NCBI RefSeq assembly: GCF_000482245.1
Contig: NZ_AWNH01000023.1
Span: 1-61,148, forward strand
Source: Leptolyngbya sp. Heron Island J
Lineage (GTDB): Bacteria; Cyanobacteriota; Cyanobacteriia; Phormidesmidales; Phormidesmidaceae
Direction: 5' to 3'
DNA: 61,148 nucleotides
Positions 20,476-36,014 of this stretch are shown piece by piece. The notes beneath the pieces were generated by a model. The model saw nothing but the letters and a program-made list of their open reading frames with translations, searched no databases and was not told where the DNA came from. Position 1 is the stretch's first letter, and every line of letters starts with the position of its first letter. The translations under genes and the position numbers were made by a program.

Positions 20476-20703
20476 ATGGCTATCGTGTTAGCACTTTTGA
20501 TCGTAGGTTGGATTGCAGCTGCCTTAATCGGTTCCCAGGCATATTTCCTTGGTGAGCAATCCAAACCCATCCATGAGCGTAACTGGCGCTCTGATTCCTT
20601 TGACGCTCTGGCTAAAACCGTAACTGGACATACCACTGATTTCAACAATCGCACCCCTGCTTATAGCTATGATGCTTTTTCAAGTCAGAGCTTAGAAGGT
20701 TAG
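20476..20703 (+). CDS. psb35: Psb35-like photosystem II-associated small membrane protein
   Basis: 75-aa single-pass membrane protein. One N-terminal helix (residues about 2-26) is followed by the conserved segment YFLGEQSKPIHERNWRSDSFDALAKTVTG and a soluble tail. I recognise this as the family of Synechocystis Ssl2148, reported as Psb35, which associates with the CP47 region of photosystem II. The ATG follows AAGGAGAC with good spacing. A putative RpaB (HLR1) site lies upstream and a strong terminator downstream, so it is a single-gene unit. Confidence 0.65.
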   Translation: MAIVLALLIVGWIAAALIGSQAYFLGEQSKPIHERNWRSDSFDALAKTVTGHTTDFNNRTPAYSYDAFSSQSLEG

Positions 20704-20780
20704 GCAATTCTCTCTTACAGCTGCTGTAACAACAGAGCTGAGAGCCATTTAAGGGCATTTAAGTTAATCACATGTAAAAA

Positions 20781-20816
20781 ATAAAGCCTCCGAACTCTCT
20801 GGTTAGGAGGCTTTAT
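20781..20816 (+). terminator. Rho-independent terminator after psb35
   Basis: Arms 20781-20791 (ATAAAGCCTCC) and 20806-20816 are perfect reverse complements around a 14-base loop. The stem is symmetrical with A/T at its base, so it may also serve the convergent mrp operon end at 20879. Confidence 0.75.
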
Positions 20817-20878
20817 CCTTTTGGGGATATAACCAGGTTTCACAACCTAGCGTGCATGGAACCATAAGAGCCAACTTC

Positions 20879-21541
20879 CTACAACAACCCTCGATAACGA
20901 ATAAAGGTCAAAATAGCTGCCCAGGACCCCAAAGCTACCTTGATGGCCACCAGAATGTTCAACACTGGAATCCATCCACCGCTGACTAGGGAACCGACCT
21001 GACCATGGGGGAGTTCAAAGCCGATCAATGTGACCACAGCCAAAATGATAAATACCAGAACGGCTATTTTTTCCCATATAGCCGCTCCCCAACGCTTATA
21101 TATCCCCTCCATCCATTTCGGCGAAGACGTAATCGCCACCAGACCAATGGCAGTACCGCCTGCAACTCCAGCGGCAAACCCTCCCCCCGGACTAAGATGT
21201 CCTCGAATAGCTAACTCAATACCAACCAGGGCCGCAATAGTTGCCCCCAGCCGTGCTAACTCTATGGATGGATGATCAGTAAATTGATAGATAGTACAAG
21301 ATGGTTGTTCATTGGCCAGCAAAAAGCGCGCCCCCATAATTGCCAGGGTAAAGACAACAACTTCAAAAATAGTGTCATATAGGCGATTCCTAAAGATAAT
21401 GCCTGATACAGCATTCGAGACACCGGTATCCTGTACAACCACCTCAATAACAGATAGCTCAGCTGTATCAGCCGCTGGGTTGGGAAAAACCAGCATCTTG
21501 ATGTAGAGCGCGATTCCAACGACAAGATAAATCCACTTCAT
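20879..21541 (-). CDS. mrpB: Mrp antiporter subunit B (MnhB-like)
   Basis: Membrane subunit of the multi-subunit Na+/H+ antiporter. The N-terminal half has two membrane helices of the MbhE/MrpA-tail type (YDTIFEVVVFTLAIMGARFLL). The C-terminal half is the MnhB domain with the signature RGHLSPGGGFAAGVAGGTAIGLVAI. At 220 aa it is longer than classical MrpB (~140), as in other cyanobacteria where part of MrpA is attached to B. It is the last gene of the run, 2 bp after the split mrpA. Confidence 0.85.
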   Translation of the reverse strand: MKWIYLVVGIALYIKMLVFPNPAADTAELSVIEVVVQDTGVSNAVSGIIFRNRLYDTIFEVVVFTLAIMGARFLLANEQPSCTIYQFTDHPSIELARLGATIAALVGIELAIRGHLSPGGGFAAGVAGGTAIGLVAITSSPKWMEGIYKRWGAAIWEKIAVLVFIILAVVTLIGFELPHGQVGSLVSGGWIPVLNILVAIKVALGSWAAILTFIRYRGLL

Positions 21542-21543
21542 AG

Positions 21544-22119
21544 CTATTTCCTGATTGGTACGTTATTGATTTCTTCAATGTCTGTAAATCTCAGACTCAC
21601 CTGTTCATGCGACAGTTGTGTCTGCAAAATCTCATATAGGCGTCGCACACGGATTTGTAAACAACATGGAGAGACCGTTTGATCATCAGAAAATTGGGAG
21701 TCTGGTCCCATAAAAGCTGCGTGAATTTCCTTATTGGATAAAGCTGTTTGTAAACTAGAAACCTGAGAGAATGGCACAACTTCTAATCGCAGATGCTTTT
21801 CTTTCAGATGATTGCGTAGAGATGCTAAAAACGATTCATATGCTGGAAATTCGCTACTAGCAGTTTCGACCACCCCCAACCGCATACTCATGGACGAGCG
21901 CACGGCAACGGCATAAAGCGTAATCGATAACATTGTGCCAACCAAGGCCTCAGTCAGTGCTACATCTGCGGCCCCAAACAGGGCATACACTAAGGCGGCA
22001 ACGGCTCCTAAAATGCCACGAATAATCAGTGCATGATAAGGATCAACCTGTGACACCAACATACCGGCTGTCACAGGAAGTAGAACTAAAATTGCAACGG
22101 TGTAAATATCTTCAGCCAT
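21544..22119 (-). CDS. Mrp antiporter subunit A-type fragment (DUF4040) with soluble C-terminal extension
   Basis: The first about 80 residues are three membrane helices of the DUF4040/MbhD type (YALFGAADVALTEALVGTMLSITLYAVAVR), which corresponds to the C-terminal part of full-length MrpA. The remaining about 110 residues are soluble, with no membrane helix and a CC pair near residue 150; I do not recognise that part. ATG 22119 is preferred over an upstream start at 22152. It overlaps mrpG by 8 bp. The large NuoL-like part of MrpA is absent from this operon. Confidence 0.78.
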   Translation of the reverse strand: MAEDIYTVAILVLLPVTAGMLVSQVDPYHALIIRGILGAVAALVYALFGAADVALTEALVGTMLSITLYAVAVRSSMSMRLGVVETASSEFPAYESFLASLRNHLKEKHLRLEVVPFSQVSSLQTALSNKEIHAAFMGPDSQFSDDQTVSPCCLQIRVRRLYEILQTQLSHEQVSLRFTDIEEINNVPIRK

Positions 22120-22399
22120 GACGTCCTTCGTTTGAGCAGTAGGCCAACACATAGCCCAGCACCGTATTCCAAATAGATAATGAAATTAGCGCCAATAACA
22201 GCAATGGCCACTCTTTAGGAATTTTCAGCAGTAGACCGACGATAATGCTCATGGAGCCAAGGGTGTCAGCCACTGATAGACTATGTAATTTAAATAGAAC
22301 TGAGCGATGACCTAACAGTGGCAGCGTGCCCCAAAACCAAAAAATTAAACCCACCACAATGCAGCCGTAGCTAGCAACGTTGATAAAGACATCAATCAT
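22112..22399 (-). CDS. mrpG: Mrp antiporter subunit G
   Basis: 95-aa membrane protein with three helices and the MnhG/PhaG signature (FWFWGTLPLLGHRSVLFKLHSLSVADTLGS). Its start overlaps the end of mrpF by 4 bp (ATGA type), which implies coupled translation. Part of the Na+/H+ antiporter complex. Confidence 0.88.
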   Translation of the reverse strand: MIDVFINVASYGCIVVGLIFWFWGTLPLLGHRSVLFKLHSLSVADTLGSMSIIVGLLLKIPKEWPLLLLALISLSIWNTVLGYVLAYCSNEGRHG

Positions 22400-22647
22400 A
22401 ATTCATTCACCCGTCTCAGCACATGGGCCAACAACATTAAGGCTGCATTCCCAACACTTAAAATTAGTACCCCCACCACACCAATCATCCAATCATCACG
22501 CAGGACAGAAAGCACCAAAATCATGGTTGATGTCTTAGTAGCTATACTGGCAAAAGCAAGCATTTTTTGCCAGATATCTTCATCCTGCCAGGCTTCATAT
22601 ATCGGGATTAATAAAGCAGCAATCATGGCTAATAAAACGCCGTTCAT
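22396..22647 (-). CDS. mrpF: Mrp antiporter subunit F
   Basis: 83-aa membrane protein with three helices. The order E-F-G and its size and topology identify it as MrpF/PhaF. Overlaps both neighbours by 4 bp. The conserved Asp usually seen in the second helix region is less obvious than in B. subtilis MrpF (RDDWMIGVVGVLILSVGNAAL is the equivalent stretch). Confidence 0.82.
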   Translation of the reverse strand: MNGVLLAMIAALLIPIYEAWQDEDIWQKMLAFASIATKTSTMILVLSVLRDDWMIGVVGVLILSVGNAALMLLAHVLRRVNEL

Positions 22648-23042
22648 CTTCCCAACCTCCGCTTAACTTGATGAACTTCATACCAGCCGTCCTCACGATA
22701 TTTGAGCACAATGGTTTTAGGCGTGAAAGTAATCAAAAAGATATCAAGAAAAATCAAACCCGGTGTGCGATATGGGCGAACACGTTCTAGCGTTACATCC
22801 TCTTTTTTATGAGGCCAAAGCATAATTTCAAATGCTTCAATGTAAGCCTGAGGAATAGCAACAACAATATGCCAAAGTATCCGTAGCCACTCTTTTAGCC
22901 ATCGCTTCCAGGTAGATGGAATGGTATAGCGTTGTGGAATCAGCAGTGCTACAAAGAGACCAATAGCAATATTGGCTGGACTCAAATCAGCCGTGAGTAA
23001 GAACCAAATTGTCAGTCGTAGCAGTATATCGGGGATACTCAT
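22644..23042 (-). CDS. mrpE: Mrp antiporter subunit E
   Basis: 132-aa MnhE/PhaE family protein: two N-terminal membrane helices (LLRLTIWFLLTADLSPANIAIGLFVALLIP), then AYIEAFEIMLWPHKKED and a soluble C-terminal end. It helps the assembly and activity of the complex in other bacteria. Its start shares one base with the mrpD stop and it overlaps mrpF by 4 bp. Confidence 0.86.
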   Translation of the reverse strand: MSIPDILLRLTIWFLLTADLSPANIAIGLFVALLIPQRYTIPSTWKRWLKEWLRILWHIVVAIPQAYIEAFEIMLWPHKKEDVTLERVRPYRTPGLIFLDIFLITFTPKTIVLKYREDGWYEVHQVKRRLGR

Positions 23043-24481
23043 TACGCCAGCACCATACTAAACAATAAGACGAGAATTAAGCTCATTGCACCGATTAGAT
23101 GCTCCAAGCGCTCAGCTGCGCGTGGTAGCTCTAGCTTCAGCTTTCTCAGCCACACACTGTAGATGAACCAACCTGCAGCAATTACGAGTAATGCTTTATT
23201 AATGTTCGAGAGGGTATAGGCTTCAAAAGAGAAGCTATTGGAGGTAATGAGACCACCGATTAGTAACGCGAGGGCTGGCCAAAAACCAGCCGAGGGTTGT
23301 TTGACCGACTCTGGAAATCGTTGAAAGGGTAAGAAAATAAATTTAGCGAAGGCAATGGCTGTACCAGTAGCTGCAATCGTTAACACAATCGACTGCCATG
23401 GGTCTAATGCCTTTAGAGTCAGTGCTTTAGCGTTAAAACCAGACACTAAGGGAAACCCAGAGATAGATAAGCTAGCTACTACTAAGACGCCCCAAACAGG
23501 TAGCTGTATCGGTGTTTGTCGGAGTTCTTGAAAGCTACGACTTGGCAAATTCCCTGCTACTAAGAATAGAGCCGCTTTGGCTAGGCCATGGCTAAGTGCA
23601 TAGAAGCCTGCTAATGCAGGAGCGGCTATGACAAATCCTAACTGGGAAATTGTACTGGCGGCTAACATCCGCTTGGTATCTTTTTCAAAGATGGCATATC
23701 CTACCCCTAGAAGCGCCGTAGCCACACTGAAAATCTGAAGAATAGGCTGAATATCACTGACCAACAATGCACACCTGACTAGTGGAAAAACACCGGTTTT
23801 AACCACTACACCTGACAACATGGCTGATACAGGTGTCTCGGATTCTGAATGGGTTAGGGGTAACCATAATCCTGAGACAAAAATGCCGCCCTTGGTCAGC
23901 ATACCGAGCATGATCAGCGCGATCGCATCTGTCGGTGCCTGCTGTAAACCCACATAGGAAAATGAGCCACTGGCTTGATAGACCAATACTGCGCCAATTA
24001 GGTAAAACAGCATGGCCGTATTGCTAACAAACAGATAGCGCAATCCGATCCAAATTGAACGATCCGTCCGGGGATAGGCAATGAGCAAGAAGGCCGCAAT
24101 GCCAACAACCTCCAAAGCCACATACAGGCTAATAAAGTCAGCACAGATGAAAACAGCATTCACACTGCCATGCAAAACCGTCAGCTGAGTGAAAAAGAAC
24201 GCTGACTTCTCCTGGGGCCAACAATAGAGAAGCACCGCAGTCGTCACCAGAGCATTACCCAAAATAAAGTAACCACTCAGGGAATCTGCCAGTAACCTGA
24301 CACCAAAGTTATCTAATAGCTGCAGGTCCAGCGTCCCTGACAACTGTATCAAGGTCAGACTATAGGCCACTGAAACCAGCACCACACCCATTGCCAGATA
24401 ACGATCCAGTTTTGGTAGCAGATAGATGCTAAATCCAACAAACAGTGGCAGAGCAATCCATGCGATCGTCATCATCATCAT
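23042..24481 (-). CDS. mrpD: Mrp antiporter subunit D (NuoL/M/N-like ion channel)
   Basis: 479-aa polytopic protein of about 14 helices, homologous to the proton-pumping subunits of complex I. Typical segments are YVALEVVGIAAFLLI, GLWLPLTHSESETPVSAMLSGVVVKTG and KDTKRMLAASTISQLGFV. It is the only large antiporter-like subunit in the operon; many cyanobacteria have two. The exact start is ambiguous because of four ATG codons in a row. The mrpC stop overlaps its start by 4 bp. Confidence 0.9.
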   Translation of the reverse strand: MMMMTIAWIALPLFVGFSIYLLPKLDRYLAMGVVLVSVAYSLTLIQLSGTLDLQLLDNFGVRLLADSLSGYFILGNALVTTAVLLYCWPQEKSAFFFTQLTVLHGSVNAVFICADFISLYVALEVVGIAAFLLIAYPRTDRSIWIGLRYLFVSNTAMLFYLIGAVLVYQASGSFSYVGLQQAPTDAIALIMLGMLTKGGIFVSGLWLPLTHSESETPVSAMLSGVVVKTGVFPLVRCALLVSDIQPILQIFSVATALLGVGYAIFEKDTKRMLAASTISQLGFVIAAPALAGFYALSHGLAKAALFLVAGNLPSRSFQELRQTPIQLPVWGVLVVASLSISGFPLVSGFNAKALTLKALDPWQSIVLTIAATGTAIAFAKFIFLPFQRFPESVKQPSAGFWPALALLIGGLITSNSFSFEAYTLSNINKALLVIAAGWFIYSVWLRKLKLELPRAAERLEHLIGAMSLILVLLFSMVLA

Positions 24482-24831
24482 GGCGTATTACTCCTTTCGA
24501 TTTCGGAAACCTCTAGCGTCGGATTATCCCGTGCCAGCTTCATCACTCCCACCAGCATCAACGCTTGAATCGAGAAACCAATCACAATGGCAGTTAAAAT
24601 TACCGCCTGAGGAACTGGATCAGCATATGCGATCGCCTCAGCTTCTAGCCCAGGTTGCAAAATAGGCGTAAATAACCCACGGTGTGACGCCACTAGAACG
24701 TAACAAGCAATGACGCCAGTGCTCATCACATCCATGGAGAGAATCTTCATCATGAGGTTTTTTTTCAGAATAATGCCAAAAAAACCACCCATGACCGTAG
24801 CAAAGATACAGGCTTCAAGTACAGCAGTCAT
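24478..24831 (-). CDS. mrpC: Mrp antiporter subunit C (NuoK-like)
   Basis: About 117-aa three-helix protein of the MnhC/NuoK type (GGFFGIILKKNLMMKILSMDVMSTGVI ... DPVPQAVILTAIVIGFSIQALMLV). The DP-PQA-ILTAIVIG string is the family signature. I prefer ATG 24831 over the upstream frame start at 24894. It lies 83 bp after the NhaS3-like antiporter gene, so the two systems are likely on one transcript. Confidence 0.88.
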   Translation of the reverse strand: MTAVLEACIFATVMGGFFGIILKKNLMMKILSMDVMSTGVIACYVLVASHRGLFTPILQPGLEAEAIAYADPVPQAVILTAIVIGFSIQALMLVGVMKLARDNPTLEVSEIERSNTP

Positions 24832-24914
24832 TGATTTAGATATCGAACAAACGTCGCTGGATGAGATTTGAAAGGAACTCCTGCCACTGACCAAACAGCA
24901 GCAGGAGTAATCCC

Positions 24915-26327
24915 TTACTCTGTCGCTGATAACGCTGCTTCAGTTGGAAGCTCCACATCGGTTTCCTTGAGAGTCATCTGCAGCAGCGGCGGCGCTAAGA
25001 ATGTAGTTAGAATCACCATCATGATAATAGCTGCTTCTAGCGGACGATCTAACACACCGCTCGCAGATCCAATTCCAGCAAAGACAAGGCCAACTTCACC
25101 ACGGGGAATCATACCCACACCAATCGCCATGCGATTGATGCCAGGCTGCCCGAAAACAGCCCAACCCGTTATCACCTTGCCAATAACTGCAACCGCCATC
25201 AAGAATGCCGCAATGATTAACCCAGCACGATTTTCAGCGACCATAGGATTCAAAACTCCCAGGTCTGCCTTAGCACCTACTGTGACAAAAAAGATAGGTA
25301 CTAGAATATCGGCAATCGGCATAACCTGCTGATCGAGTTCGTTGCGCTTATCAGTTTCGTCAAGCACCAGGCCAGCTGCAAACGCACCTAAAATTGCTTC
25401 TAAATGGATGGCACTAGCCAGACAAGACATCACCAATGCAAACGTGAATGCAGGGATGAGAAGCGCCCCACGAGTTTGTAGCTTATCGGCAATGGCCACA
25501 AATCCTGTATTGAAGAATTTGCCCAAAAGGATAGCACCTAACAGAAACGCACTGGCGCTAATGATCAAATAGACAACATTCAACAAATCAACTTCACCTG
25601 TCTTAGCTAGACTAGCCACAACGGCTAGCACAATAATGCCTAAGACATCATCAATAACAGCTGCCCCAACAATAATCTGGCCTTCCTTAGATTTCAGATG
25701 ACCCAGTTCAGCAAGGACTTTAGAAGTAATCCCAATACTAGTCGCCGTCAGCGCTGCCCCAGCAAAAATTGCAGGAATCACAGGAACATGGAAAATTGAG
25801 ATTAGCCCAACGGTGCCAAGGGTAAAAGGAGCAACAACACCAACAACAGCCACCACAGCCGCTTGAGCGCCAACCTTACTTAATTCACGCAGGTCGGACT
25901 CCAGTCCAATTTCAAACAGCAGAACAATAACACCTAATTCTGCTAAGACCGAAATAACCTCGCTCTGGCTTTCAAAAACATGCATGGCGGCCTCAGCATC
26001 AAGGTTCCCCATCCACTGTATGACTTGAGCAATGACTGAATCAGTTACAGCTGCACTATTCTCAGGGAACATGATCAGATGTAAGGCTGAAACCCCTACA
26101 ACCACACCCCCCACCAATTCACCCAGCACAGGAGGCAAATCAAGCCGCTTAGATAATTCACCACCTAATTTACTGGTGAGATAAACTGTAATCAAACTCA
26201 GCAATACACCAATCAAAACAAATGGGCCGCTTTCAGCAGATGAGACCTCTGCGAACACCCATGGACTAGCAGGCCAGGCATCTATCAACTGATTAAGGGA
26301 TAGATTTGACAGGTTATTCAAAAACAC
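24915..26327 (-). CDS. nhaS3: CPA2-family Na+/H+ antiporter, NhaS3/NapA-like
   Basis: 470-aa membrane antiporter with about 12-13 helices. The ion-binding Asp pair of electrogenic CPA2 antiporters is present (VIDDVLG, Asp226-Asp227), as is the unwound-helix motif near 190-202 (GAALTATSIGITS). There is no C-terminal regulatory domain. In cyanobacteria this type (Synechocystis NhaS3) is essential and located in thylakoid membranes. Its position between bicA and mrp suggests it helps to keep the Na+ gradient that drives BicA. The symbol follows the closest type I recognise. Confidence 0.85.
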   Translation of the reverse strand: MFLNNLSNLSLNQLIDAWPASPWVFAEVSSAESGPFVLIGVLLSLITVYLTSKLGGELSKRLDLPPVLGELVGGVVVGVSALHLIMFPENSAAVTDSVIAQVIQWMGNLDAEAAMHVFESQSEVISVLAELGVIVLLFEIGLESDLRELSKVGAQAAVVAVVGVVAPFTLGTVGLISIFHVPVIPAIFAGAALTATSIGITSKVLAELGHLKSKEGQIIVGAAVIDDVLGIIVLAVVASLAKTGEVDLLNVVYLIISASAFLLGAILLGKFFNTGFVAIADKLQTRGALLIPAFTFALVMSCLASAIHLEAILGAFAAGLVLDETDKRNELDQQVMPIADILVPIFFVTVGAKADLGVLNPMVAENRAGLIIAAFLMAVAVIGKVITGWAVFGQPGINRMAIGVGMIPRGEVGLVFAGIGSASGVLDRPLEAAIIMMVILTTFLAPPLLQMTLKETDVELPTEAALSATE

Positions 26328-26466
26328 GAATAAAGCCTCTTTATTTCAGAGTTTCAAAATGTTTTTTATGTCCTAGGACATCAGTGTGAAAGTCAAGTGC
26401 CAAATGAATAGAGGCAGGAACTGAAACCCAATGCCTAAAAACAAGTAGAACGCTATTTGATGGCAA

Positions 26467-26676
26467 CTAACTACGTAGACTGCCAAGTTGTAACCAACCA
26501 ATGGCAAGAGCACCAATTGTTAGTTGGACCGCACTAGGCACGAGAGAGAATCCCCAAATGCCGCTCAAAAGACCGACGCTGTATAGTGCCATGGAGTGAA
26601 CTTCATCAAGGTGACGCAATCGATAACCTAGAACGGTAATACCGAGAGCAAAAAACAGCCAGAGAATAGGTTGCAT
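26467..26676 (-). CDS. Small two-helix membrane protein between bicA and nhaS3
   Basis: 69 aa with two hydrophobic helices (ILWLFFALGITVLGY and a second at about residues 30-65). It begins 14 bp after the bicA stop, with AAGGAGAG just before its ATG, so it is almost certainly cotranscribed with bicA. I do not recognise a family. It might be an accessory subunit of BicA or of the antiporter; this is inference from position only. Confidence 0.6.
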   Translation of the reverse strand: MQPILWLFFALGITVLGYRLRHLDEVHSMALYSVGLLSGIWGFSLVPSAVQLTIGALAIGWLQLGSLRS

Positions 26677-26690
26677 AGCTCTCCTTCAAG

Positions 26691-28400
26691 TTAGCTTGAG
26701 ATCTTAGAGGACGCGTCTTCTAAAGATGAGGTCGATAGATCGGTCTCAGAGTCTGTAGGATAGATGCTCAAAACAGCTTGCTTGAGCGCTTCAGCGCGAT
26801 CCGCATGCACATGCTTAGTAGGAACTAAATCAAAGACCTTAAGCGATGACAAGCGACGTCTGGTTTGTCCAGCAGCACCTACGATATACACGTAGCGTCC
26901 TTTCTCAGTAGCTTCTTTGATAGCACTCTCAATAGCTAGAGAAGCAGTTACACCCAAGTGGGGAACATCATTTAAGTCAAAGACAACTGCGTCGTATTCT
27001 CCAATAGCGTTATGCTCTCGGGAAATGGCTTTGGCTACCCCAAAAATCATGGGACCACCAAGCTGGAACAACAATACGCGACCATTACCTTCGTCTAACC
27101 AGCGCTTTTCATCAGAGTCCAGCCGAATCGCATCGTCTGCGTCAGTAATGGCCCGAACAGACTCAGAGCGCAGTTGGCTCATGCGATCAATTGTAAGGAT
27201 GTTGGCAACAAATACACCGATACCTACTGCCGCAATCAAGTCGACTAAAACCGTCAACATAATAACGCCGTACATGATCAGCGCACCCTTCAGAGAGATT
27301 TGATGCGCCCGCTTAAGGAAATCCCAATCAATGATGTCAATACCAACCTTGAGGGCAATACCAGCAAGGACAGCCAGGGGAATTGTTGCAGCTAAATTAG
27401 CAGCTCCCAAGATAACAATCAAGAGAACAAAGGCTCGAGTGAGGCCAGAAAGCGCTGTACGACCACCGGCTTGGATATTAACAACGGTGCCCATGGTAGC
27501 ACCAGCACCAGCAATACCGCCGAACAGACCAGACATCAGGTTACCAAGACCCTGACCAATCAGCTCTTTATTAGAGTTGTGGTCAGTACGGGTTAGGCTA
27601 TCAGCAACTAAGGAAGTCAACAGTGCGTCAATACATCCCAACATCCCCAGAACAGCTGCATCAACAAACATTAGGCGTAACTGATCAGCCCCGAAGGTAG
27701 GAACCTGCATCTGCGGGAAACGCATGGGGATTTCGCCGATACGACGGATGTCGATATCAGGAAACAGAACTAGAGAGAGTATAGTACCGCCGATTAGTGC
27801 AACCAGCTGAGGTGGAACCAGCCGCTTAAGCCTGGCTGGCATGAACCAAATAATGGCAACAGATACAACTGCCAGCATTGTCTCGGGAGGTTGTATGTTG
27901 GCTAACAAGTCAGGAATTGACTGTAGCGTACCAACTACACCGCCGCCAGGACTGGCTTGACCCAAAAATGGTGCAAGCTGCAAAATGACCAGGATGATAC
28001 CAATACCAGACATAAAGCCCGATATAACGGTATAAGGCATCATCGTGACATATTTACCAAGCCGTAGAAAGCCAAAGATAATTTGGAATACCCCGGCCAT
28101 CATGACCACGGTGAATGCCATCGCCATCCCATTTTCAGGATTGGTTGCGGTCAGATTGGCAATCACAGCCGTCATGACCACTGTCATGGGGCCAGTGGGC
28201 TCAGAAATTAGTGTAGGCGTGCCACCAAATAAGGCCGCAAAAAAGCCAACTAATACAGCCCCCCATAAACCTGATGCTGCACCTGCACCAGAGGCAACAC
28301 CAAAGGCCAACGCCATGGGTAATGCAATAACAGCAGCGGTGACGCCTCCAAAGATGTCACCGCGTAAATTTCGGAAATGGATCTTATTTGTAATCTGCAT
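26691..28400 (-). CDS. bicA: SulP-type Na+/HCO3- symporter BicA
   Basis: Plasma-membrane bicarbonate importer of the CO2-concentrating mechanism: low affinity, high flux, sodium dependent. The protein follows characterised BicA almost throughout: the N-terminal MQITNKIHFRNLRGDIFGG, the substrate-site region GTPTLISEPTGPMTVVMTAV, IDALLTSLVADSLTRT and the C-terminal STAS domain from about residue 430 (VVFDLNDVPHLGVTASLAIE). Length is 569 aa. It heads a minus-strand run with a small membrane protein, an NhaS3-like antiporter and mrp genes. Confidence 0.95.
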   Translation of the reverse strand: MQITNKIHFRNLRGDIFGGVTAAVIALPMALAFGVASGAGAASGLWGAVLVGFFAALFGGTPTLISEPTGPMTVVMTAVIANLTATNPENGMAMAFTVVMMAGVFQIIFGFLRLGKYVTMMPYTVISGFMSGIGIILVILQLAPFLGQASPGGGVVGTLQSIPDLLANIQPPETMLAVVSVAIIWFMPARLKRLVPPQLVALIGGTILSLVLFPDIDIRRIGEIPMRFPQMQVPTFGADQLRLMFVDAAVLGMLGCIDALLTSLVADSLTRTDHNSNKELIGQGLGNLMSGLFGGIAGAGATMGTVVNIQAGGRTALSGLTRAFVLLIVILGAANLAATIPLAVLAGIALKVGIDIIDWDFLKRAHQISLKGALIMYGVIMLTVLVDLIAAVGIGVFVANILTIDRMSQLRSESVRAITDADDAIRLDSDEKRWLDEGNGRVLLFQLGGPMIFGVAKAISREHNAIGEYDAVVFDLNDVPHLGVTASLAIESAIKEATEKGRYVYIVGAAGQTRRRLSSLKVFDLVPTKHVHADRAEALKQAVLSIYPTDSETDLSTSSLEDASSKISS

Positions 28401-28865
28401 TTTGAAGCACCTCGCTTAGCCAAGCTAAGACTCTCTCAGTTGCCCACCATTGACCTGAATCCAAAAGCTTGCCTGACGTTTCCCAAAGAAAGCTAATGCT
28501 TGCGCTGCCGAGGAAATCAGACATGGTGGTTAAATAAATCAAACAAGAATTGACTTCAATAAATGAAATCCTTGCTTGTCATTGATTAAAGTCTACCAAT
28601 AAAATGAAATGGCTTTACCATTTGTTTGATTTATTAATTTCAATCAGAAGCATAAGCTTAGTCTATAGGTTCACCACCTAAATATGCGCTGACTTTGCTT
28701 GGATTATCTGCGGAAACGCTATTTAAAGCAGCATTTATTAGCTTTTGTCAGCTAACTACTCATTACTTCTGCTATTGAAGAGCTATAGTTGGACAACTGC
28801 TACAGGGAACCGAGCCATTAAACGACACTGACGTCACTACAACCGGTTGATTGCAAACAGCAGAC
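28401..28865. promoter_or_regulatory. Leader region of bicA
   Basis: 465 bp without a gene. It has a perfect 14-bp inverted repeat with arms far apart (28533-28546 AATAAATCAAACAA and 28622-28635) and a nested one (AAATGG/CCATTT, 28607-28623). A TCAATG half-site, as described for NdhR/CcmR, occurs on the minus strand at about 28571-28576. These would fit control by inorganic-carbon LysR-type regulators, but this is not proven. Confidence 0.45.
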
Positions 28866-33416: not shown

Positions 33417-36014
33417 ATGTCACGGGATGCATTGATTGTTGGAATAAATCAATATCAGGCATTGCCCAGGCTTACGGCAGCAGCTAAGGATGCGGAAGGC
33501 GTAGCTAATCTTTTAGAAACTTATGGCGACTTTCGAGTACGCAGATTACCTGAAATCATTCAAGACCAGCGGCCTAAAATCGGTCAACAAACATTAGTTT
33601 CAACCCAGCAATTAGAAAACAGTTTGGTACGCCTACTGTTACCCAAAGGCGATCATATCCCTGAGGCTGTTTTCTTTTATTTTTCAGGTCATGGTCTCCA
33701 AAGAGAAATCGGTATTCGAGAAGGGTATCTGGCCACCAGTGACACCCAGCCAGACATCTCCAACAGCGGGCTATCATTATCGTGGCTACGCCGTCTAATC
33801 AGACACAGTCCCATACGCCAAATTATTGTCATTTTAGACTGTTGTCACAGTGGTGAGTTCCTGTCTCTCAAAGATGAATCCTGGCAGGGAAGAGATGGTC
33901 AAAGCTATTTGTTTATAGCAGCCTCTCGGGAGTATGAGGAAGCCTATGAGTCACTCAACAGCGATTATAGTGTACTAACTCAGGCAGTTGTCTCTGGGTT
34001 ACGACCGCAGCAATCTGACCATGGTCGAGTCACAAGTGTCGATCTAGTTGCTTCGATTACTAATCAGCTAAGCAATGAAATTCAACAACCGCTCTTTGAA
34101 CAGAGTGGCAGCGAAATTGTTATTACCCGCCACTCGGAGCGTTCTTTACCACCAACCAAGAGCATTCCACTCATTGCTCGCTTAAAGCAGTACAGCTTTA
34201 ATTTCTGCCCCTATTGCGGACCCCAACCCTATGAAGCCAAGCATGCTGAGTATTTCTTTGGGCGGGAAAATCTTATCCAAGATATGCTCTTAGCATTACA
34301 ACATACAGATATCTATGCACTGGTGGGTGCCTCTGGCAGTGGTAAAACGTCCTTATTGCAAGCTGGTCTGATTCCCCGTCTAGCTCAAGGACATGATATT
34401 GAGGGAAGTGAGCATTGGTTAGTACGCTACGTGACCCCTAATGCTCACCCCTTAAAAACCCTTGCTGCCGCATTTGTTGACGCTGATCAGGAGATTAATG
34501 TTGCTGCTCAGTTATTACAAGCTGAAAATATCCTGCGTAATGAGCCCAAGGGGCTAGCACATTTAGTGAGTGCCGCACTCCTTAAACATCCGACTGCCAA
34601 GAAGTTTTGGCTCATAATTGACCAATTTGAAGAGCTACTCACCACAACCAACAATCCTCAAACACAAAACGATCGAGAACAGGTCATCAAAGCCTTGATC
34701 AAAGCCTTGCACTGTCCTGCAATTGATTTAGGAGTGATTATTAGTCTGCGCTCAGATGCTATGGATCACCTGCTAACCCATGGCGAGCTGTTTTCAGCAT
34801 TAGAGGGGCATCAGGTTGTTATTCCGCCAATGAGTTATCAAGAAATTCGAGAGGTGATTGAAAAACCTGCGGAGAAACTGGGATTAAGGATAGATCCTTA
34901 TCTAGTTCACAATCTAACGTTGGATTTAACTGGTGCTCCTGGTGAATTAGCCTTACTGCAAAATACACTCCATGAACTGTGGCAACATCGTTCTCCCAAT
35001 TCATGCAGTAAAGGTAGCCCCTGCTTATCATTAGAGAGTTATATGAAACTAGGGAGACTCTCTAACATCATTACCAGCAGAGCGACAACTCTTTATGAAT
35101 CACTCCCTGTAGAGGAGCAAGCAGTAGCAAGACGCATTTTTCTCTCCTTATGTGATTTAGGTGAAGGTCATATTGATCAAGGTCGTCGCGTTCGGAAAAT
35201 TGAATTGGTGAATCATCAATTTCCTAAGGCATTAATTGATCGAGTCTTGAAAAAATTTATCATGGCCCGGTTAATTGTTGTAGACCAAGCGATCGCACCT
35301 CTTCAGCCAAGTAACCGAACAGTGGCCACAAACGTAGAAATACCAGAGGAAACTACTATTCAGTTGGCCCACAAATCTTTAGTCTCGGATTGGTCTCTAT
35401 TGCGTCAATGGTTGCACAGCAATCGCACTACACTGCGTCAACGGCGGGATATTGAAGACCGAGCCTGGATATGGCACCATCGTGGCCAACTCAAATGCCC
35501 AGACTATCTACTCGGGCAGCGGTACTTACAAGATGTAAGTCAGTTTCTAATGGCTCACTCACAGGACTTATCAGATTTAGCTCAAAGGTTTGTACAAATT
35601 AGCAGACGCACCGTTATTTGCCAGCGGTGGCGAACCCGAGGGATAGCCGTCATGCTCCCTCTTACCATCATGACAGGCATGACGGCATCATTAGTACGTC
35701 AAACTCCAGACTGGCGCTTTAGGAGAGTCGCAACTGGCGATGCTGCACTTGCAACCCAGTTACCCAATCCCATATCGACTATGGAACTCCAGCCACAATT
35801 ACCGACAAAATGGGGCATGATGGGAGCTGATTCTCTTGTAATGACTGGCCAAATTCTAGTGTTTAGACGGCAGCATCCACAGTCCGAACTCAATCACATT
35901 CCGATTACCCAATTAGCCAGTCTAATCAAGCCTGGCATGCTCACAGCAAGCTCAGCATCATTACCGGACACATCCAGCACGCGGCTGAATGATGGTGAAG
36001 TCAGCGCCCCCTAG
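33417..36014 (+). CDS. Caspase-like peptidase (C14) fused to an nSTAND1 ATPase
   Basis: The N-terminal caspase/metacaspase domain (residues 1-240) has the catalytic dyad: His92 in YFSGHG and Cys143 in LDCCHSG. The STAND ATPase starts with CPYCGPQPYEAKHAEYFFGRE (263 on). Walker A is GASGSGKTS (304-312) and Walker B is LIIDQFEEL (399-407). Most proteins of this design continue into WD40 repeats; here a transmembrane helix (about 742-760) and a short tail of about 105 residues follow instead. It could be a membrane-bound cell-death or defence protease, by analogy with other STAND-caspase proteins. It is a single gene with GTA/AGT-rich upstream DNA and no strong ribosome site. Confidence 0.87.
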   Translation: MSRDALIVGINQYQALPRLTAAAKDAEGVANLLETYGDFRVRRLPEIIQDQRPKIGQQTLVSTQQLENSLVRLLLPKGDHIPEAVFFYFSGHGLQREIGIREGYLATSDTQPDISNSGLSLSWLRRLIRHSPIRQIIVILDCCHSGEFLSLKDESWQGRDGQSYLFIAASREYEEAYESLNSDYSVLTQAVVSGLRPQQSDHGRVTSVDLVASITNQLSNEIQQPLFEQSGSEIVITRHSERSLPPTKSIPLIARLKQYSFNFCPYCGPQPYEAKHAEYFFGRENLIQDMLLALQHTDIYALVGASGSGKTSLLQAGLIPRLAQGHDIEGSEHWLVRYVTPNAHPLKTLAAAFVDADQEINVAAQLLQAENILRNEPKGLAHLVSAALLKHPTAKKFWLIIDQFEELLTTTNNPQTQNDREQVIKALIKALHCPAIDLGVIISLRSDAMDHLLTHGELFSALEGHQVVIPPMSYQEIREVIEKPAEKLGLRIDPYLVHNLTLDLTGAPGELALLQNTLHELWQHRSPNSCSKGSPCLSLESYMKLGRLSNIITSRATTLYESLPVEEQAVARRIFLSLCDLGEGHIDQGRRVRKIELVNHQFPKALIDRVLKKFIMARLIVVDQAIAPLQPSNRTVATNVEIPEETTIQLAHKSLVSDWSLLRQWLHSNRTTLRQRRDIEDRAWIWHHRGQLKCPDYLLGQRYLQDVSQFLMAHSQDLSDLAQRFVQISRRTVICQRWRTRGIAVMLPLTIMTGMTASLVRQTPDWRFRRVATGDAALATQLPNPISTMELQPQLPTKWGMMGADSLVMTGQILVFRRQHPQSELNHIPITQLASLIKPGMLTASSASLPDTSSTRLNDGEVSAP

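Follow-up and report, generated by a model that had tools for sequence, protein, structure and literature searches.

The 61,148-nucleotide contig NZ_AWNH01000023.1 of Leptolyngbya sp. Heron Island J (the window in what follows; contig C23 of genome G000, an 8.06 Mb cyanobacterium) carries at positions 20879–28400 the gene of a SulP-type Na+/HCO3- symporter, bicA, followed on the same strand by genes for an NhaS3-like Na+/H+ antiporter and for an Mrp antiporter without the antiporter half of MrpA. We read this run as, probably, a chromosomal cluster for Na+-coupled bicarbonate uptake, in which BicA symport is served by antiport through the NhaS3-like protein and the MrpA-less Mrp. Inferring the direction of transport, the partnership and the co-expression in this organism from homologues, we propose that BicA would bring HCO3- into the cell together with Na+, while the NhaS3-like paralogue and the group 3 Mrp would exchange cytoplasmic Na+ for external H+. 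Such exchange would keep up the Na+ gradient for BicA, and the incoming protons would replace those consumed as HCO3- becomes CO2.

The identities and order of the genes, like their recurrence in other genomes, are direct results of this analysis. All ten open frames lie on the minus strand, to which the coordinates below refer unless another strand is given, and the limits that the first-pass annotation had set for a ten-gene, single-strand run are exact; its assignment of the run to bicA, an NhaS3-like gene and Mrp antiporter genes is borne out by Pfam and NCBIfam family matches. Read along this strand, the order is bicA, a gene for a 69-amino-acid (aa) membrane protein, the nhaS3-like gene and mrpC-D-E-F-G-A'-B. 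The bicA product (26691–28400; 569 aa) combines the Pfam domains Sulfate_transp and STAS and passes the NCBIfam equivalog NF050096 with 994 bits (cut-off 880). The gene of the small membrane protein (26467–26676) begins 14 nucleotides (nt) after bicA and is separated by 139 nt from the nhaS3-like gene (24915–26327), whose product, a CPA2 Na+/H+ antiporter of 470 aa counted from a provisional GTG start, matches Pfam Na_H_Exchanger at 3.4e-68 and scores 180.8 bits against the NCBIfam CPA2 model TIGR00932, below the cut-off of 238.3. After a further 83 nt follow the genes mrpC through mrpB, in which neighbours overlap or sit at most 2 nt apart.

Within this tight group, mrpC (24478–24831; 117 aa; Oxidored_q2 7e-23; NF005620 182.4 bits, cut-off 91) was given a corrected ATG start at 24831, which is also kept in the named loci L007 and L008. 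The next gene, mrpD (23042–24481; 479 aa), encodes the sole antiporter-type (NuoM/N-like) subunit of the cluster, with a match to Pfam Proton_antipo_M and 770.6 bits against NF005564 (cut-off 439). Between mrpE (22644–23042; 132 aa; MNHE 5.9e-08) and mrpG (22112–22399; 95 aa; PhaG_MnhG_YufB 3e-18) stands mrpF (22396–22647; 83 aa), which is named by position: its product is conserved across 28 aligned cyanobacterial proteins, has no Pfam or NCBIfam match and no detectable homology to solved MrpF, and gave no usable alignment with canonical MrpF; judged by eye alone, Ala or Ser might stand at the position of the conserved MrpF Asp. A', the cyanobacterial 'mrpA' (21544–22119, with the ATG start corrected to 22119; 191 aa), encodes an MbhD/DUF4040 part (MbhD 4.4e-15) with three predicted membrane helices, followed by a soluble C-terminal domain, and scores 212.7 bits against NCBIfam NF005630, a model named 'hypothetical protein' (cut-off 149). 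Finally, mrpB (20879–21541; 220 aa) joins an MbhE-like N-terminal part to an MnhB domain (7.6e-20), with profile matches to 6u8y_E, 6cfw_F and 6cfw_E.

We surveyed the recurrence of this neighbourhood in 146 genomes of the phylum, matching MrpD at 1e-60 and bicA at 1e-120 and calling linkage within 10 kb for bicA-mrpD and nhaS3-mrpD and within 3 kb for bicA-nhaS3. All three modules lie together in five of these genomes (G000, G049, G061, G074 and G124), so that the synteny survey which had been named as a check shows the threefold joining to be patchy but recurrent. Pairs occur as bicA-nhaS3 without mrp in 11 genomes (G018, G037, G071, G086, G096, G100, G107, G109, G110, G122 and G126), as nhaS3-mrp without bicA in two (G027 and G059) and as bicA-mrp without nhaS3 in one (G008). 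G107 has the bicA-nhaS3 pair in divergent orientation, with one stop in its nhaS3 match, and G126 has it in convergent orientation; G088, with nhaS3 about 19 kb from mrpD, was left out of the counts. Among genomes with both partners, linkage is found in 6/34 for bicA-mrpD, 7/56 for nhaS3-mrpD and 16/41 for bicA-nhaS3, against expectations of 0.28, 0.46 and 0.20 under a crude random-placement model that assumes a 4.9 Mb genome and two to four gene pairs and ignores kinship between genomes. Each pair of modules is linked more often than this model predicts. A neighbourhood owed only to chance or to shared horizontal transfer would agree with the patchiness of the full arrangement, but the excess of pair linkage over the random expectation and its recurrence across several taxonomic families make such an origin very improbable.

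A second set, comprising the best 80 of 193 MrpD relatives in named genomes, was selected for similarity to the window, not at random; among these 80 the closest loci by MrpD identity belong to Leptolyngbya PCC 7375 (80%) and Adonisia turfae (81%). Full-length bicA and nhaS3 lie upstream of mrpD on the same strand in 21 of the 80 loci, while bicA only is found there in two, nhaS3 only in three and nhaS3 with a partial bicA match in six. Neither gene is present in 32 loci with at least 4.5 kb available before mrpC and in ten without that room, and other arrangements occur in six (L031, L036, L061, L067, L082 and L084). The statement that bicA stands beside an antiporter gene in some marine cyanobacteria holds for the pairing and not for the marine limit, as Nostoc and Mojavia loci are included.

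Short bicA matches only are seen near mrp in L032, L045, L048, L052, L061 and L067, and 5/41 genomes (G043, G080, G090, G112 and G144) have bicA matches interrupted by stops, which suggests repeated decay of bicA. MbhD and mrpD are far apart or on separate contigs in G047, G100, G110 and G142; the mrp cluster seems to be dispersed in part of family f13, of which G136 keeps MbhD and mrpD together. The genome of the window encodes a second BicA-like protein of 53% identity at G000:C79:21537-23147.

The link between these modules has been described for other cyanobacteria, in the parts of the publications drawn on here. In Nostoc 7120, a CO2 step-down raises the bicA operon 8.7-fold and the mrp operon 5.4-fold, the genes concerned being the bicA-nhaS3-like pair all1304-all1303 and mrp all1837-1843 (PMC7699953). 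The same genes respond jointly to a Ca2+ shift, and the Mrp operon is said there to supply symporters with Na+ (PMC4915528). The Microcystis bicA-nhaS3 operon is lowered at high CO2 (PMC4419860). According to a review, Synechocystis mnh/mrp (slr2006-2013) is raised in an ndhR mutant, and mnh is tentatively proposed to expel Na+ for HCO3- uptake (PMC4390856); NhaS3 and Mnh are elsewhere treated as auxiliary elements of inorganic carbon (Ci) uptake that serve the Na+ gradient (PMC10096703). Because of this published co-regulation and the Na+-export roles of Mrp and NhaS3, the interpretation offered in the first-pass annotation, a sodium circuit for carbon uptake, is established in outline: its functional link is upheld by recurrent clustering and by the published co-regulation, and its novelty is not, being largely in print. 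The cluster exemplifies a sodium-carbon partnership that is already known, and the threefold joining of the modules is a patchy, recurrent variant of it. A narrow literature search on synteny found no paper, and the parts of the texts covered contain no statement that bicA, nhaS3 and mrp adjoin.

The Mrp module belongs to group 3, which is defined by a missing mrpA (PMC8415708, in part): mrpD is present and the MrpA antiporter half absent, and A', with its 191 aa, is not the full-length MrpA of group 1. All 56 MrpD-bearing genomes of the class have a single copy of PF13244 (DUF4040/MbhD), in open frames of 162–275 aa; that of G000 lies in a 213-aa frame. Outside the class, DUF4040 frames of 865 aa (G016) and 797 aa (G023) have the size of MrpA and a third measures 376 aa (G013), with weak sub-cut-off matches in G020 and at a second place in G023. 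No MrpA match over the family cut-off was found in G000, by a weak test that only 1 of 14 control genomes passes. Judged by its composition, the cyanobacterial 'mrpA' of this sample is not a full MrpA; all1838 itself lies outside the comparison. In the passages available, cyanobacterial Mrp has already been classed as group 3, with the Anabaena Mrp called group 1 (PMC5703873), and cyanobacterial genomes are listed with mrpB to mrpG and no mrpA (PMC6337551, PMC6971039), the latter source also mentioning MrpA-G in general terms. The stand-alone Pyrococcus complex is described as unique in having no energy-input module (PMC8415708), and the single-mrpD cyanobacterial clusters look like further stand-alone cases. 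With no MrpA antiporter half and, in this sample, mostly one MrpD, cyanobacterial Mrp complexes lend themselves to testing models in which Na+ transport is the task of MrpA.

MrpD is present once in 47 of the 56 genomes and twice in nine (1e-60). A tree of 43 MrpD rows joins the two copies of a genome as supported sisters in G008, G061, G102, L024 and L081; the copies of G049 and G074 form a supported group of their own, as do those of G100 and G110; pairs are not sisters in G109 and G000, are unresolved in L027 and L085 and stay under the support mark in L086. From this tree, mrpD seems to have been duplicated independently in several lineages, with gene conversion, which could also make sisters, as the alternative. 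We do not favour a single ancient D1/D2 pair, since the labels fail to group in the tree.

The second MrpD of G000 is an intact orphan outside any mrp cluster (G000:C36:78109-79530, corresponding to L094:9285-10733), with 65% identity to that of the window; its neighbours, read from their translation, presumably encode an Xaa-Pro aminopeptidase and a glutathione reductase. The window Mrp might pair with this protein in a complex with two antiporter subunits, like that of Aphanothece (CD1D2EFGAB). Two MrpD also occur in eight other genomes of the 56, but in the tree the orphan and the window MrpD are not sisters, no mrp cluster surrounds the orphan, and the prevalence of a single MrpD in the class is a further reason to regard such a complex as unlikely.

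The residues of the ion paths are kept unevenly. In MrpD, E124, K197, H298, K302, F306 and K352 are identical in 31/31 rows and K228 in 30/31, and they align with Mrp residues named in the part of PMC9568556 consulted. In A', the Glu of DVALTEALVG is E in 26/29 rows and Q in 3/29, and MBS subunit D has Glu there too; canonical MrpA E687, with numbering inferred from the alignment, falls on A' G61 (29/29). MrpB keeps D56 and E60 (22/22) and has Arg in 21/22 rows where MBH has Asp. The canonical MrpC His pair aligns with Thr38 and Ile41, with an invariant D34 close by (16/16), and MrpG keeps H39 (18/18), as placed by weak alignments (E-values 0.08 and 0.48). With the MrpD residues kept and the cation residues mixed, the proton path therefore seems to be intact and the cation path to be in part MBH/MBS-like.

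Transcription signals were sought along the run and upstream of bicA. A terminator-like hairpin with a U tract follows mrpB (20774–20820; minimum free energy (MFE) -21.2, z -5.56, 0/200 shuffles as good); it was spotted by eye and then folded, since its loop is over the limit of our terminator scan, and in L007 and L008 the first 103 nt past mrpB contain no significant fold (z -0.34 and -0.13). The scan itself gave 12 terminator sites against 8.5 in shuffles, and the promoter scan 10 promoter-like sites against 12.8. The gap between nhaS3 and mrpC (24832–24914) forms a hairpin with no clear U tract (MFE -28.8, z -3.81); L007 (z -4.68) and L008 (z -3.51) have it too, though their stem sequence differs. 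In seven more loci, five of them folded over only part of their longer gap, z was below -3 in L040 and between -0.29 and -1.93 in the other six. This hairpin may be an attenuator or a processing site. The fold of the gap between the 69-aa gene and nhaS3 is not significant (z -0.74). Upstream of bicA, in a region scanned with an NdhR-like motif, lies an ATTG-N12-CAAT dyad (28581–28602), a possible LysR-type site. It is identical in L007 and L008 and absent from the other 21 of 24 bicA upstream regions at up to two mismatches; because these two loci are near relatives of the window, the dyad stays a mere lead.

Several observations weigh against a cluster devoted to bicarbonate uptake. The three modules do not stand together in 29 of the 34 genomes with bicA and mrpD, and in 22 of the 56 genomes with mrpD, bicA is not matched at 1e-120; because mrpD is so often found without bicA or without linkage to it, Mrp has other roles, in salt and alkali. 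The ten genes may not be a single transcript, which the strong nhaS3-mrpC hairpin makes doubtful. For Synechocystis at pH 9.2, the part of PMC12382314 considered reports cation/H+ antiporter proteins as little changed and MrpA as the sole Mrp subunit detected. Finally, the cluster has not retained some residues of the Na+ path of solved Mrp, namely the His pair of MrpC, the E687 position of MrpA and an exit Asp.

It is possible, though less likely, that nhaS3-mrp is a salt and alkali tolerance unit, which bicA adjoins through a shared need under alkaline, low-CO2 conditions and not for the service of the pumps. The two genomes with nhaS3-mrp and no bicA (G027 and G059) fit this alternative, but they are outnumbered by the 11 with bicA-nhaS3 and no mrp. 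L032, L045, L048 and L052 likewise keep nhaS3-mrp with short bicA matches only upstream, in stretches free of N. The passages of the literature at hand tie mrp to salt and alkali on the one hand, and on the other report its induction along with the Ci transporters on CO2 step-down. Na+-coupled bicarbonate uptake served by both antiporters is the reading that we prefer.

We then consider the soluble domain of A' (21547–21891). All 29 aligned A' proteins continue for 105–197 residues past a fixed point after the third helix. The AlphaFold2 model of A' consists of three long helices and a soluble alpha/beta domain, with a predicted local distance difference test score (pLDDT) of 82.4, and the domain predicted alone has a like fold (82.2). 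The helices match MbhD of MBH (6cfw_D, Z 9.1) and an MrpA model (9a6h, Z 9.5). Foldseek matches the domain best to LysR effector domains and binding proteins (lowest E-value 2.5e-3, none below 1e-3). With VIA-align, Z starts at 8.8 and is still 7.3 at rank 50, where 4 to 5 is typical, although a Z under about 8 may reflect mere arrangement; we take all 50 matches shown to be of the type-2 binding-protein kind. In sequence, the domain has a weak match to 1xs5 (TpN32; E-value 0.09), and sub-cut-off matches to the Pfam NlpA lipoprotein family appear in two of eight A' domains scanned (window 0.0029, L085 0.019), two others having unrelated weak matches (0.14 and 0.19) and four none.

With 115 residues against about 190 or more in the targets, the window domain does not have two lobes with a ligand cleft; because its residues 1–97 pair with the end regions of those longer chains, a single lobe without its partner is suggested. 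The C-terminal domain of A' is predicted to be one such lobe, of the type-2 binding-protein/LysR effector fold, in which all 29 rows share E113, H133 and R160. By analogy with MrpA topology it should be cytoplasmic, and its predicted fold suggests that it probably regulates or scaffolds the pump; a conserved lobe of this kind could link metabolism to Na+ export. A bolder proposal, which we put forward as speculation and hold to be rather unlikely in its full form, is that in cyanobacteria the 'MrpA' subunit of the pump carries, behind DUF4040 helix three and close to where the Na+ site is proposed, a cytoplasmic sensor lobe through which a metabolite or protein would gate Na+ export for bicarbonate uptake in a minimal one-antiporter Mrp with no MrpA half as Na+ path. 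A narrow literature search found nothing on this domain.

The NhaS3-like paralogue was placed in a tree of 42 copies from the sampled genomes and 8 from named loci, plus the window; sampling was not random, linked copies and second copies being taken first, and no named reference was included. Of the 24 copies in this tree with linkage to bicA or mrp, 23 group in a single 30-row clade with 99/98 support. The window copy belongs to this clade, as do seven unlinked copies; outside it are the linked, convergent copy of G126 and the C106 copy of G000. The linked state requires 8 changes against a shuffled mean of 17.3.

The 69-aa membrane protein matches no Pfam or NCBIfam family, giving sub-cut-off matches only at a lax limit. 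Its relatives occur in 12 of 194 genomes of the class, at 13 places including the window: six adjoin bicA or nhaS3, two adjoin mrpC, and around the other five none of these genes lies within 1.5 kb. The idea that this protein is part of the circuit does not hold as a constant trait, with 8 of the 13 places beside bicA, nhaS3 or mrpC; it is an occasional companion of the cluster.

Around the run, a 75-aa open reading frame on the plus strand (20476-20703) is convergent with mrpB and has 85-87% identity to its counterparts in L007 and L008 and no Pfam match. On its upstream side, bicA has a gene for an SMC/SbcC-like ATPase as its neighbour. Farther away, a protein of the metacaspase-STAND type is encoded on the plus strand at 33417-36014, combining caspase (Peptidase_C14), NACHT and nSTAND1 parts, and two copies of the NsiR1 small RNA (Rfam RF02399, 50 and 58.4 bits) lie on the minus strand at 85-143 and 238-296, near the edge of the window.

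Compared with published accounts, as far as the parts consulted go, the first half of the run resembles Microcystis PCC 7806 bicA-nhaS3 and Nostoc 7120 all1304-all1303, which also combine BicA with an NhaS3-type antiporter and are CO2-responsive in those organisms. However, mrp is listed as a separate operon in Nostoc 7120, whereas in the window it comes directly after nhaS3; and the LysR gene ccmR2 lies upstream in Microcystis, where the window has its SMC/SbcC-like ATPase gene. The mrp genes are kin to the cyanobacterial Mrp/Mnh of Nostoc (all1837-1843) and Synechocystis (slr2006-2013), for which low-CO2 or NdhR regulation is reported, and follow the C-D-E-F-G-A-B order of Aphanothece mrpCD1D2EFGAB minus the second D; reviews give two mrpD for both Aphanothece and Synechocystis, whereas the window cluster has one, as does the mrp operon reported for Nostoc 7120 (all1842). 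From canonical Mrp of groups 1 and 2, with which it shares relatives of MrpD, C, B and G and the proton-path residues of MrpD, the cluster differs by its single short DUF4040 frame and the lost MrpC His pair. In build it resembles the group 3 Mrp of Pyrococcus furiosus and the MBH/MBS modules, which likewise have one MrpD-type subunit and no MrpA antiporter half. With MBH/MBS it shares equivalents of MbhD, MbhE and MbhF, and its MrpB resembles MBS subunit E in the fusion of MbhE to an MnhB part; unlike these complexes, it has no hydrogenase or sulfur module, and its A' adds a soluble domain.

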